In this document: positions 127 through 49,455 of the stretch, piece by piece
Layout of the letters: every line of letters begins with the position of its first letter
Numbering within the stretch: the stretch's first letter is position 1
The notes under the pieces: model-generated
Told to the model about the DNA's origin: nothing
The model's input: the letters and a program-made list of their open reading frames with translations, nothing else
Database searches by the model: none
Source: Gallionellaceae bacterium
GTDB taxonomy: Bacteria; Pseudomonadota; Gammaproteobacteria; Burkholderiales; Thiobacillaceae
Direction: 5' to 3'
Assembly: GCA_028714875.1 (NCBI GenBank)
Contig: JAQTLN010000011.1
Location: forward strand, 1-64,000
DNA: 64,000 nucleotides
Translations under genes and position numbers: made by a program

Positions 127-1295
127 GCGGCTTCATCGCTACCTGGCGATCCAACTCCAAGCTTGAGCGGGACGATCGTCAGGTAGTCGCCGCGCGCCAA
201 CCTGGCCTACGCCGGCGGCACGGGCGTTACGGCCGTAGGCCAGGTTGCGGCTTCATCGCTACCTGGCGATCCAACCCCAAGCTTGAGAAGGATGGTCGTC
301 AGGTAGCCGCTACGCGCCAACCTGACCTACGCGGGCGGCGCGGGCATTACGACCGTAGGCCAGGTTGCGGCTTCATCGCTACCTGGCGATCCAACCCCAA
401 GCTTGAGCGGGACGATCGTCAGGTAGTCGCCGCGCGCCAACCTGACCTACGCGGGCGGCGCGGGCTTTACGGCTGTAGGCCAGGTTGCGGCTTCATCGCT
501 ACCTGGCGATCCAACCCCAAGCTTGAGAGGGACGGTCGTCAGGTAGTCGCTACGCGCCAACCTGACCTACGCGGGCGGCGCGGGCATTACGACCGTAGGC
601 CAGGTTGCGGCTTCATCGCTACCTGGCGATCCAACCCCAAGCTTGAGTGGGACGATCGTCAGGTAGCCGCTGCGCGCCAACCTGACCTACGCCGGCGGCA
701 CTGGTGTTACGACCGTGGGCCAGGTTGCGGCTTCATCGCTACCTGGCGATCCAACCCCAAGCTTGAGCGGGACGATCGTCAAGTAGCCGCTGCGCGCCAA
801 CCTGACCTACTCGGGCGGCGCGGGCATTACGACCGTAGGCCAGGTTGCGGCTTCATCGCTACCTGGCGATCCAACCCCAAGCTTGAGCGGGACGATCGTC
901 AGGTAGTCGCTGCGCGCCAACCTGACCTACGCCGGCGGCACGGGCATTACGACCGTAGGCCAGGTTGCGGCTTTATCGCTACCTGGCGATCCAACCTCAA
1001 GCTTGAGAGGGACGGTCGTCAGGTAGTCGCTACGCGCCAACCTGACCTACGCGGGCGGCGCGGGCGTTACGGCCGTAGGCCAGGTTGCGGCTTCATCGCT
1101 ACCTGGCGATCCAACCTCAAGCTTGAGTGGGACGATCGTCAGGTAGTCGCTACGCGCCAACCTGATCTACGCTGGCGGCGCGGGCGTTACGGCCGTAGGC
1201 CAGGTTGCGGCTTTATCGCTACCTGGCGATCCAACCCCAAGCTTGAGCGGGACGATCGTCAGGTAGTCGCTGCGCGCCAACCTGACCTACGCCGG
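127..1295 (+). repeat. Array 1: ~10 tandem 120-bp BIME units, each with two REP-like hairpins
   Basis: Unit GTAGGCCAGGTTGCGGCTTCATCGCTACCTGGCGATCCAACCCCAAGCTTGAGCGGGACGATCGTCAGGTAGTCGCTGCGCGCCAACCTGACCTACGC... recurs at an exact 120-bp period without indels. Confidence 0.97.
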
Positions 1296-1587: not shown

Positions 1588-3012
1588 TCAGGGCACGAGG
1601 ACGTCCGTCAGCGGATGCCGTTGCCTGAGCGCCGTTGCCAGGGCCTGCTTGGCGCTGTCATCACCATGCACCAGGCGGATTTGTTTTGGTTTGCCGCGCA
1701 TGCGGCCGATGAAGTTGAGCAGGTCTTTCTGATCGGCGTGGGCGGAGTAGCCGCCGAGGGTGTGGATGCCGGCGAGGATGTCGTGGCGCTGGCCATCGAG
1801 TATCACGTAGCCACCCTTGGGGCCGTATTTCTGGATGTCTCTGCCCGGGGTGCCCGCCGCCTGGTAGCCGACGAACAGAACGTCGTGGCGTGGGTCGCCG
1901 AGCATGGCCTTGAGGTAGTTGACGATGCGGCCACCGCTGCACATGCCGCTGGCGGCGATGACGATGGCGGGGCGGGCGGTGCGTGCCAGGTAGTCCACCG
2001 TTTGCAGGTGGGTGGCATGGTCGTCGATGGTGGTGAGTTGTTCGAAGGCCAGGGGGTGGCGGCCAGCGGCCAGTTTGCGCCGGGCTTCGTTGTCCCAGTG
2101 TTCGCGCAGTTGTGCGTAGCCGGCGGTGAAGTCCGCCGCTAGAGGGGAGTCGACGATGATGTCCAGGTCGTCCCAATTCACGCCAGGCGCGGCGGGGCGC
2201 TGGCGGTTTTTGTGGATAATCTCTTCCAGCTCGTAGAGCAACTCCTGGGTGCGGCCGATGCTGAAGGCGGGAATGAGCACCGTGCCTTTGTTGCCGAAGG
2301 CGTGTTCGCACAGGGCTTGCAGGCGCTTGCGGCGGTCTTTTCGGCTTTCGTGGGTGCGGTCGCCATAGGTGCTTTCCAGGACGACGACATCGGCGGCATA
2401 GGGGGATTTGGGCGCGGGCAGCAGGGGAGTGTAAGGGGCGCCCAAGTCGCCGGAGAACACGATGCGTTGCTTGCCTTTACCCTGCTTCAACTCGAATTCG
2501 ACGTAAGCGGAACCGAGGATATGGCCGGCGGGGGAAAGCTTGACGCGCAACCCCGGGTCACCCGCGATGGCGGTGTGCCACTGCTTGTAGGGCAAGGCGA
2601 TGATCTGCTGGCGCATCTGCGCCAGGAAGCGGTCGATGAGGGTTTGGTTCCGGGTGAAGCCGATTTTGAGGGCATCTTCCAGCACCAGCGGCAAGAGTAC
2701 GGCGGAGGCCTGGCTACATAATATCGGCCCACGGAAACCGGCGGCCAGCAGGTAAGGAATGCGCCCGACATGGTCGATGTGAACATGGGTGACCACCAGG
2801 GCACGCACCTGATCGACAGGGAAAGTGATGTTGAGCCGATCGGCGCCGGCACCCTCGCTGGAAGTCTCCGCACCCTGAAACAGGCCACAATCCACCAGCA
2901 CGGACTGGCCATCGCCCAGGGCAAGTTGGTGGCAGGAGCCGGTGACACCATTGACGGCGCCGTGGTGGGTGATTGCGTATGGAGGGTTCGTGATTGTTGC
3001 AGTAGCACACAT
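1588..3012 (-). CDS. MBL-fold beta-CASP RNA-processing exonuclease/metallohydrolase family protein
   Basis: 474 aa; HVHIDHVGRIPYLL metal-binding motif, late IAASGMCSGGRIVNYL and GGYSAHADQKDLL motifs typical of beta-CASP/RMMBL proteins. Confidence 0.88.
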   Translation of the reverse strand: MCATATITNPPYAITHHGAVNGVTGSCHQLALGDGQSVLVDCGLFQGAETSSEGAGADRLNITFPVDQVRALVVTHVHIDHVGRIPYLLAAGFRGPILCSQASAVLLPLVLEDALKIGFTRNQTLIDRFLAQMRQQIIALPYKQWHTAIAGDPGLRVKLSPAGHILGSAYVEFELKQGKGKQRIVFSGDLGAPYTPLLPAPKSPYAADVVVLESTYGDRTHESRKDRRKRLQALCEHAFGNKGTVLIPAFSIGRTQELLYELEEIIHKNRQRPAAPGVNWDDLDIIVDSPLAADFTAGYAQLREHWDNEARRKLAAGRHPLAFEQLTTIDDHATHLQTVDYLARTARPAIVIAASGMCSGGRIVNYLKAMLGDPRHDVLFVGYQAAGTPGRDIQKYGPKGGYVILDGQRHDILAGIHTLGGYSAHADQKDLLNFIGRMRGKPKQIRLVHGDDSAKQALATALRQRHPLTDVLVP

Positions 3013-3081: not shown

Positions 3082-3292
3082 TTGGATCGTCAGGTAGCGA
3101 TGAAGCCGCAACCTGACCTACGTCGTCTTCGCAGGTGCAGCCATCCCCAGTAGGTCAGGTTGGCGCGCAGCGACTACCTGACGTAGCGCGCCGCTCAAGT
3201 TGGATCGTCAGGTAGCGATGAGGCCGCAACCTGACCTACTCGGGAATATTCACGCTTGCGTTGTAGGCCAGGTTGCCGGAGGCTACCTGGCA
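3082..3292. repeat. RAYT-proximal REP cluster (left)
   Basis: Hairpins TCAGGTAGCGATGAAGCCGCAACCTGA, TCAGGTTGGCGCGCAGCGACTACCTGA, TCAGGTAGCGATGAGGCCGCAACCTGA and CCAGGTTGCCGGAGGCTACCTGG. Confidence 0.93.
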
Positions 3293-3316
3293 CTCCAGAC
3301 ATCAAACCTCCACGCC

Positions 3317-3820
3317 ATGTCCAACCTGCGCCGCTACCCCAACCTTGGCCATCCGGTATTTCTCACCTTGGTTTGCCGCGACCGTGCGGCGCATCTAGGC
3401 AGCGACAATGCGAAGACGTTGTTTCTCGAAGTGTTGCGTGGTCTCAAGCAGGAACAGCCGTTCCGACTGCACGCACATGTTCTGCTGGATGACCATGCTC
3501 ATCTGTTGCTGACCCCGGAAGATGGTAATTTCTCCGCGATCGTGCAGCGCTTGAAATTGCGTTTCACGCGGCGCTTGAAGCGAGGGGAATCGGCTTCCCT
3601 CTGGCAACCGCGCTTCTGGGATCACTGCATTCGCGATGCCGATGATCTCGCCCGGCATCTCGACTACATCCACTACAACCCGGTGAAACATGGACTGGCC
3701 CGATGCGCGACGGAATATCCCTGGTCTTCTTTGCGTGCACATATCGAGCGCGGACATTACCCGGCGGATTGGGGTAGTTCAGGCATGCCAGGGCAACTGG
3801 CCGGGATGGAGTTGGAGTAA
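3317..3820 (+). CDS. REP-associated tyrosine transposase (RAYT, Y1_Tnp/HUH family)
   Basis: 167 aa from ATG at 3317; HVLLDDHAHLLLTPE (HUH-type HAH), DYIHYNPVKHGL catalytic-Tyr motif, SLWQPRFWDHCI; flanked on both sides by REP hairpins. Confidence 0.93.
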   Translation: MSNLRRYPNLGHPVFLTLVCRDRAAHLGSDNAKTLFLEVLRGLKQEQPFRLHAHVLLDDHAHLLLTPEDGNFSAIVQRLKLRFTRRLKRGESASLWQPRFWDHCIRDADDLARHLDYIHYNPVKHGLARCATEYPWSSLRAHIERGHYPADWGSSGMPGQLAGMELE

Positions 3821-3840
3821 TGGCAAGTTTGAGGGAACGA

Positions 3841-4105
3841 TCGTCAGGTAGCCTCCGGCAACCTGACCTACGCTGGCGGCACAAGCGTTACGGCCGTAGG
3901 TCAGGTTGCAGCTTCATCGCTACCTGACGATCCAACTTGAGCGGCACTATCGTCAGGTAGTCGCTACGCGCCAACCTGACCTACGCCGGCGACACAAGCG
4001 TTACGGCCGTAGGTCAGGTTGCGGCTTCATCGCTACCTGACGATCCAACTTGAGCGGCACTGTCGTCAGGTAGTCGCTACGCGCCAACCTGACCTACGAG
4101 GTATC
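3841..4105. repeat. RAYT-proximal REP/BIME cluster (right), 113-bp period
   Basis: TCAGGTAGCCTCCGGCAACCTGA followed by two units with GTAGGTCAGGTTG starts at 3896 and 4009. Confidence 0.93.
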
Positions 4106-5524: not shown

Positions 5525-5566
5525 AGGGTCTGGTTGCTTGTTAATAGATTGCTGAAAGTTTGATTG

Positions 5567-6692
5567 TGGATCGCCAGGTAGCGATGAAGCCGCAACCTGG
5601 CCTACGGTCGTAATGCCTGCGCCGCCCGAGTAGGTCAGGTTGGCGCGTAGCGACTACCTGACGTTCGTCCCGCGCAAGCTTGAGGTTGGATCGCCAGGTA
5701 GCGATGAAGCCGCAACCTGGCCTACGGCCGTAAAGCCTGTGCCGCCCGCGTAGGTCAGGTTGGCGCGTAGCGTCTACCTGACGTTGGTATCGCTCAAGCT
5801 TGGGGTTGGATCGCCAGGTAGCGATGAAGCCGCAACCTGGCCTACGGTCGTAACGCCTGTGCCGCCCGCGTAGGTCAGGTTGGCGCGTAGCGTCTACCTG
5901 ACGTTGGTATCGCTCAAGCTTGGGGTTGGATCGCCAGGTAGCGATGAAGCCGCAACCTGGCCTACGGCCGTAACGCCCGCGCCGCCGGCGTAGGTCAGGT
6001 TGGCGCGTAGCGACTACCTGACGATCGTCCCGCTCAAGCTTGGGGTTGGATCGCCAGGTAGCGATAAAGCCGCAACCTGGCCTACGGCCGTAACGCCCGC
6101 GCCGCCCACGTAGGTCAGGTTGGCGCGTGGCGACTACCTGACGATCGTTCCTCTCAAACTTGGGGTTGGATCGCCAGGTAGCGATGAAGCCGCAACCTGG
6201 CCTACGGTCGTAACGCCCGCGCCGCCGGCGTAGGTCAGGTTGGCGCGCAGCGACTACCTGACGTTCGTCCCGCTCAAGCTTGAGGTTGGATCGCCAGGTA
6301 GCGATAAAGCCGCAACCTGGCCTACGGTCGTAACGCCCGCGCCGCCGGCGTAGGTCAGGTTGGCGCGTGGCGGCTACCTGACGATCGTCCCGCTCAAGCT
6401 TGGGGTTGGATCGCCAGGTAGCGATAAAGCCGCAACCTGGCCTACGGCCGTAACGCCCGCGCCGCCGGCGTAGGTCAGGTTGGCGCGTGGCGACTACCTG
6501 ACGATCGTCCCACTCAAGCTTGAGGTTGGATCGCCAGGTAGCGATGAAGCCGCAACCTGGCCTACGGCCGTAACGCCCGCGCCGCCGGCGTAGGTCAGGT
6601 TGGCGCGTAGCGACTACCTGACGATCGTCCCTCTCAAGCTTGGAGTTGGATCGCCAGGCAGCGATAAAGCCGCAACCTGGCCTACGGCCGGC
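5567..6692 (-). repeat. Array 2: 9 complete 120-bp BIME units plus one terminal hairpin, inverted relative to array 1
   Basis: GGATCGCCAGGTAGCGATGAAGCCGCAACCTGGCCTACGG...GTAGGTCAGGTTGGCGCGTAGCGACTACCTGACG... repeated at exact 120-bp period. Confidence 0.97.
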
Positions 6693-6698
6693 TGTCAC

Positions 6699-20796: not shown

Positions 20797-20936
20797 CATA
20801 GGTCAGGTTGCGGCTACATCCCTACCTGACGATCAACGCGACCGTCAGGTAGTCGCTGCGCGCCAACCTGACCTACATAGGGAGCAGGCGGGACCTGGGT
20901 AGGTCAGGTTGCGGCGTCATCCCTACCTGACGATCC
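20797..20936. repeat. Distant RAYT-type REP cluster (three hairpins)
   Basis: TCAGGTTGCGGCTACATCCCTACCTGA, TCAGGTAGTCGCTGCGCGCCAACCTGA, TCAGGTTGCGGCGTCATCCCTACCTGA with GTAGG feet. Confidence 0.92.
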
Positions 20937-49420: not shown

Positions 49421-49455
49421 GTGTCAGGCCGCGATGAACCCGCAGCCTGACCTAC
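49421..49455. repeat. Solitary divergent REP hairpin
   Basis: GTCAGGCCGCGATGAACCCGCAGCCTGACCTAC. Confidence 0.75.

Follow-up and report, generated by a model that had tools for sequence, protein, structure and literature searches.

A REP family with covarying stem pairs and a conserved T-T mismatch around a RAYT gene

The interval 3082-4105 of the window (the whole 64,000-nt stretch of DNA analysed here) is a REPtron, in which a RAYT gene lies within nested inverted hairpins. Three pairs of the hairpin stem switched repeatedly, in a coordinated manner, while a T-T mismatch in the middle of the stem stayed in place. The explanation proposed here, which is considered probable, is that of a group 2 RAYT/REP system with its own REP family, whose RAYT would recognise the foot and the T-T in the single-stranded hairpin while the stem pairs drift as pairs.

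The RAYT locus and the hairpins of the window

Three loop classes were distinguished: A (cggcttcatcg), B (gcgcgtagcga) and S (short loop, ccggagg). The features of the window were as follows.

176..1290, tandem BIME array of 19 hairpins with a 120-nt unit: nine of class A (all with C-G outer pair) and ten of class B (T-A; one C-A)
3087..3239, left RAYT-flanking REPs: A 3087-3121 (-), B 3150-3184 (+), A 3205-3239 (-); all with T-A outer pair
3263..3293 (+), S REP just upstream of the RAYT gene: outer pair C-G, mismatch T-T; ssDNA MFE -10.9, z -4.7
3317..3820 (+), RAYT (TnpA-REP) gene, 167 aa (NF047646, PF01797, 4er8, AF2/Foldseek)
3841..3871 (-), S REP just downstream of the RAYT gene, inverted: outer pair T-A, mismatch T-T; ssDNA MFE -9.6, z -4.4
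3896..4097, right RAYT-flanking REPINs: A 3896-3930 (+)/B 3950-3984 (-) and A 4009-4043 (+)/B 4063-4097 (-); period 113 nt, outer pair T-A
5571..6685, second tandem BIME array, inverted relative to the first, 19 hairpins: ten of class A (all C-G) and nine of class B (T-A)
20798..20933, three REPs: 20798-20832 (+, foot ATAG), 20842-20876 (-), 20899-20933 (+)
49421..49455 (-), solitary REP: inner pair T-A changed to C-G (TCAGGC/GCCTGA), T-T changed to T-G

The 3317-3820 protein matched NF047646 (REP_Tyr_transpos) at 1.5e-39 in a profile search and also PF01797 (Y1_Tnp), and phmmer related it to 4er8, the E. coli TnpA(REP), at 1.6e-28. Its AF2 model (pLDDT 90) found its best Foldseek fold match in the same 4er8 (TM 0.82). 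The HUH motif reads DHAH, one residue apart from the subclass 2.2 signature DHLH, the tyrosine motif reads YIHYNP with a single Tyr, and a C-terminal tail is present without any fusion. Judged from its sequence, this RAYT is of the group 2 / TnpA subclass 2.2 type. Its REPs displayed the corresponding group 2 feature, a long stem interrupted after 7 bp (here by T-T) and followed by an upper stem.

Nine hairpins flank the gene in the order A-, B+, A-, S+, RAYT, S-, A+, B-, A+, B-. The two S hairpins, 3263-3293 (+) and 3841-3871 (-), are inverted cognate REPs, and the RAYT sits between them as in one long unit; the product of this adjoining gene is probably the transposase by which the REPs are copied. 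Among the window loci, the RAYT flanks, the array 5571-6685 and the 20.8-kb cluster were intergenic by ORF map, and the last RAYT-flanking hairpin extends a few bases into the stop end of the next ORF. The copy number of the left array is a lower bound because this array starts at the contig start, where the assembly probably broke in repeats.

Two neighbouring frames deserve mention. The adjoining gene 1588-3012 (-) encodes a beta-CASP metallo-hydrolase resembling aCPSF1 and Cas14-type MBL proteins, far under curated cut-offs. A 385-aa open frame at 5541-6698 (-), which spans the second REP array with GRRPGCGFIATWRSN.. as its repeat, is an artefact of the BIME array and liable to be mis-annotated as a protein.

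On the REP strand, the foot GTAG occupies positions 1-4 and the pairs 5-33 to 11-27 are G-C, T-A, C-G, A-T, G-C, G-C and T-A. Above 11-27 come the T12-T26 mismatch (stem position 8), the pair G13-C25 and a loop of 7 or 11 nt with pairing ends. DNA folding reproduced this hairpin at -9.6 to -11.3 kcal/mol (z -4.4 to -4.7), and the complementary strand gave weaker folds. The arms CAGGTTG..CTACCTG with their T-T, which an earlier note on this DNA had reported for all loop types, were indeed common to classes A, B and S, and the GTAGG that it had seen ahead of the hairpin was present as a foot in 171 of 179 copies.

The same note had described an "outer" pair, here 6-32 (the extra pair G5-C33 sits outside it), as switching coordinately. 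This held by loop class in the arrays, but the C-G form CCAGGT/ACCTGG, which had been attributed to the first hairpin of both arrays, was displayed by all 19 class A array hairpins (176-1290, 5571-6685); array class B hairpins carried T-A, apart from one C-A at 176-210. The TCAGGT/ACCTGA attributed to RAYT-proximal copies applied to classes A and B and to 3841-3871, but not to 3263-3293, the sole C-G hairpin in 3082-4105. As described, the 49.4-kb copy carried TCAGGC/GCCTGA, but its T-T had turned into T-G.

Genome-wide copies, doublets and covariation of the stem

Exact CAGGTTG-loop-CTACCTG hairpins numbered 164 in the 4.08-Mb genome, against 0 with a reversed-pattern control. Allowing all 16 base combinations at the mismatch gave 178 places, the non-T-T ones being 14 compared with eight in the control, which puts the alternatives to T-T at background level. 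Stretches were then fetched around 49 covariance-model or pattern matches and from six RAYT paralogue regions; in these and in the window, the covariance model located 178 hairpins at 54 loci. A GTAG tetranucleotide directly before a palindrome, a high copy number and a RAYT gene between inverted cognate REPs agree with the definition of REPs by Nunvar, which asks for GTAG or GTGG; Rfam at gathering thresholds gave no match in the window. At one locus of the same genome (C17:2300-2850), a minus-strand hairpin near 288-323 combined a repaired mismatch (CAGGTAG/CTACCTG) with C-G at the outer pair and an unusual loop of 12 nt, cggcgatagccg.

Most hairpins (162 of the 178) were held in 81 foot-outward doublets, with gaps mostly of 28-37 nt. 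By loop class, 57 doublets were A+B, ten A+S, eight B+S and six A+A. Outside, conservation ended at GTAG; inside, it continued as GATCC after A and GATCGT after B. This arrangement is a REPIN organisation. Inverted-REP doublets are the replicating unit in Pseudomonas (PMC3116915), where the REP sequence is another one; in the family described here the two halves usually differ in loop class.

The window alone would not prove covariation, since its array copies arose by tandem duplication, and the analysis had to draw on the whole genome and on six further ones (see below). Counted by locus in the genome of the window, two-sided stem changes numbered 16, all from one Watson-Crick pair to another, and one-sided changes 18. 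The former consisted of C-G at 6-32 (11 loci, all three loop classes), C-G at 11-27 (four) and A-T at 5-33 (one). Across 71 distinct rows of this genome, 95% of cells were paired, and 47 cells were changed on both sides, against 20 in shuffles and at most two when slid.

Same-branch double changes between Watson-Crick pairs were counted in leave-pair-out trees, approximately, because hairpin trees rest on ~30 columns: they amounted to 13 at 6-32 (null mean 0.6), 10-16 at 9-29 (null 0.8-1.4) and 15-19 at 11-27 (null 1.1-1.6), and no co-change was found at 12-26. A stricter null, in which substitutions were re-dealt on an all-column tree, left these three as the top three of 253 pairs, with E of 0.03 at 9-29, 0.3 at 11-27 and 1.2 at 6-32, that is, below 0.05 at 9-29 only. 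Covariation of the stem is taken as established; the exact number of events is uncertain.

The comparison with shared ancestry on which the earlier note had made its reading depend was run on this genome and the six others, and the reading withstood it. Its view that covariation implies selected folding is supported by the 16 out of 16 Watson-Crick outcomes and by the tree tests. Its wording of folding "as ssDNA/RNA" is upheld as to folding; covariation alone would fit ssDNA and RNA alike, and template-switch mutation too. An excess of G-T over A-C was sought among one-sided changes and was absent (6 versus 8 by locus), so that the covariation does not indicate which strand is selected. Recognition as ssDNA is favoured by the constancy of the T-T and by a foot present on one side only.

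The T-T clade and helix alpha-3 of the RAYT

RAYTs 46-51% identical to that of the window were found in six other genomes (a Burkholderiales MAG, Methylomonas sp. WSC-6, a betaproteobacterial MAG, a Candidatus Thiodiazotropha MAG and two more of the class). All were flanked by GTAG hairpins with T-T at the same place, and REP copies ranged from 4 to 185 per genome. These relatives were sought through RAYT homologues in other groups, because no other sampled genome of the order displayed a RAYT at E < 1e-33 and, in a sample of 399 genomes from the phylum, the exact REP consensus was confined to this one. The seven T-T RAYTs grouped in one starred 16-row clade of the tree. The closest RAYT from the same genus (48%) was accompanied by REPs with perfect 8-bp stems, not T-T.

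T-T occupied 85 of 94 distinct rows from the seven genomes, a count of distinct rows rather than of copies. In the six other genomes, the pairs 6-32, 9-29 and 11-27 switched repeatedly while T12-T26 stayed. Several genomes combined two REP types, CAGGTTG/CTACCTG and CACGTTG/CTACGTG, which differ by a compensatory G-C/C-G change at 9-29. In G548, pair 11-27 took the forms T-A, C-G and G-C, and pair 6-32 was T-A in some copies and C-G in others. The search patterns used there fixed columns 5, 7, 8, 10, 28, 30, 31 and 33 (in G1141, G1143 and G1144 also 6/32), so that pattern-fixed stem pairs were tested in the genome of the window only.

In the Candidatus Thiodiazotropha MAG, the cognate RAYT (L042:3001-3510) is interrupted by an in-frame stop immediately behind its HUH motif, although the genome contains ~185 T-T REPs, most of which belong to two nearly identical types. 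This combination may come from recent loss, from an error in the assembly or from action in trans.

E. coli TnpA(REP) needs both GTAG and a mid-stem bulge (PMC8266576), and the earlier note was right to name a foot and a stem mismatch as features of its REPs. Its K82, in helix alpha-3, contacts the bulged C27, at which SELEX accepts C or T (PMC8266576). T26 of the window REP lies at the same stem height as this C27, and Leu81 of the window RAYT aligned with Lys82. In the alignment, position 82 (E. coli numbering) was Leu in seven out of seven T-T RAYTs and Lys in six out of six RAYTs with AA/GC (A-C) REPs, E. coli included; of two other clades, Arg prevailed in one and Thr in the other, and paired stems went mostly with Arg.

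Among 56 RAYTs of less than 70% identity, assigned to hairpins within 250 bp of the gene by heuristic stem calls, position 82 topped 151 columns in shuffle-corrected mutual information with nucleotides 12.27, followed by 79 and 78; this ranking is a partial control, as all columns share the same phylogeny, and position 82 was singled out because the crystal contact was already known. For stem pairs 6, 9 and 11 it ranked 5, 8 and 22. A coincidence test on a tree built without alpha-3 placed it at rank 2 (p 0.001, full state) or 3 (p 0.015, paired states pooled).

On these alignments the link between position 82 and the mid-stem is a correlation, not a strict code. A one-to-one code of residue 82 was rejected, since Leu also occurred with paired stems and Thr or Ala with another T-T arrangement. 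The latter belongs to a second REP type, GCCGGAATAAG..GTTTCCGGC, seen at L049, L051, L053, L057, L072, L082 and L093 (Methylococcaceae and others), with T opposite T at the same height plus an extra unpaired AA, and RAYTs with Thr or Ala at 82.

The T-T is probably a recognition signal, read by one RAYT helix. A more specific version is put forward tentatively: alpha-3 (E. coli 78, 79 and 82) may act as an evolving code by which RAYTs recognise the REP mid-stem, in which 82 would read nucleotides 12 and 27 and the rest of the stem would be kept for pairing only. If so, changing one residue together with the mismatch could turn a RAYT towards a new REP family, and the coexistence of many non-crossing REP families would be explained.

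Explanations of the paired changes and relation to known systems

In the proposed mechanism, the GTAG-footed strand would fold as ssDNA into a 7-bp lower stem, the single T-T and an upper stem whose length varies. The RAYT, a single-strand nuclease of the HUH/Y1 type, would recognise the foot and the T-T, the latter through alpha-3 with its Leu at E. coli 82, and would cleave the strand. Stem pairs would matter mainly as pairs and so drift by compensatory change; mismatch and foot would be read directly and so stay fixed. The unit that moves would be the foot-outward doublet, GTAG-REP-spacer-REP-CTAC, and BIME arrays would arise from it by tandem amplification.

Mutation could also produce paired changes without structural selection, if template switching between quasipalindrome arms rewrote both sides at once. 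Such switching can yield compensatory double changes in hairpins (PMC8794818), and double changes were about as frequent as single ones here (16 versus 18 by locus). It should also repair T-T to T-A or A-T, however, and repaired forms made up three of 94 distinct rows, without co-change at 12-26 on any branch; repair is therefore rare or selected against. Mutation bias gives, moreover, no account of a mid-stem state that tracks RAYT residue 82, and this origin is regarded as unlikely. Somewhat less credit is given to selection on RNA hairpins (mRNA 3'-end protection, termination or attenuation) with an incidental RAYT. The REPs are intergenic at the window loci mapped above and probably transcribed, and G-T pairs in the stems of REPs have been taken to indicate that they function as RNA (PMC3733652); one-sided changes were, however, no richer in G-T than in A-C, one REP of each inverted doublet would be antisense in any transcript, and T-T, foot and the residue-82 correlation indicate the RAYT.

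Shared ancestry of a few duplicated REP types is very improbable as the sole source of covariation. The G-type and C-type REPs (at 9-29) that occur together in a genome may both be ancestral and array copies are duplicates, but C-G at 6-32 occurred in three loop classes at 11 loci and again in G548, where 11-27 took three pair types, and the leave-pair-out trees reject ancestry. Least probable of all is that the symmetric positions are half-sites of a dimeric dsDNA-binding protein, changing jointly without a hairpin: the foot is one-sided, the conserved mismatch is asymmetric, and REP types differ in loop length with the form of the arms unchanged, a difference that would displace rigid half-sites.

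This system is close to the E. coli REPtron with its y, z1 and z2 REPs (4er8; PMC8266576). Both share the GTAG foot, a 7-bp lower stem with an irregularity from stem position 8 (nucleotide 12), an upper stem, inverted REPs flanking the gene, and a homologous HUH/Y1 protein of the same fold. They differ in that E. coli has a 2x2 AA/GC bulge and the window REP a single T-T (1x1, in the 85 of 94 rows given above) instead of the AA-GC mismatch; the lower stem reads TCAGGT instead of CCGGAT, Leu replaces Lys82 and the HUH motif is DHAH.

With proteobacterial REP/BIME families, as far as described in the consulted parts of Nunvar 2010 (PMC2817692) and Di Nocera 2013 (PMC3733652), the window family has foot and palindrome, high copy number and BIMEs in common. 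Stem variants that keep complementarity were already described in those parts, which held no comparable T-T-mismatched stem, statistical test or cross-genome covariation; the string CAGGTTG was absent from the text of Di Nocera 2013. T-T pairs also occur in the REP-derived oligonucleotides Hpar-18 and Chom-18 (PMC7709200), but there two of them come from the central TT of a two-strand crystal duplex, and in the window the T-T lies inside the hairpin stem itself. Group 2/subclass 2.2 RAYTs with bulged REPs have been described (PMC6006769), and biochemical knowledge of how REPs are recognised comes mainly from a comparison of three RAYT/REP pairs (PMC8266576).

REP covariation, the foot, the need for a mismatch and the kind of system are thus published. 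The T-T REP clade in seven genomes, its covarying pairs against a fixed mismatch and the alpha-3 correlation appear to be new among the papers searched; an earlier description may exist elsewhere, in subscription journals. This natural set separates two roles in one hairpin, pairs that need only pairing and a mismatch that must stay, and it names a protein position that may read the mismatch, which bears on how RAYTs choose their repeats.

The window hairpins are one of the mobile-hairpin (REP) families in their genome. Further RAYT-like genes were found there at C7:124179-124691, C16:35955-36422, C7:77892-78377, C3:140708-141181, C2:188977-189353 and C22:10404-10694. The C2 copy is interrupted by an in-frame TGA, and two of these genes were accompanied by other REP types, GTAGGGCGGAACGCG.. 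and GTAGGTCGGGTTAGCG...
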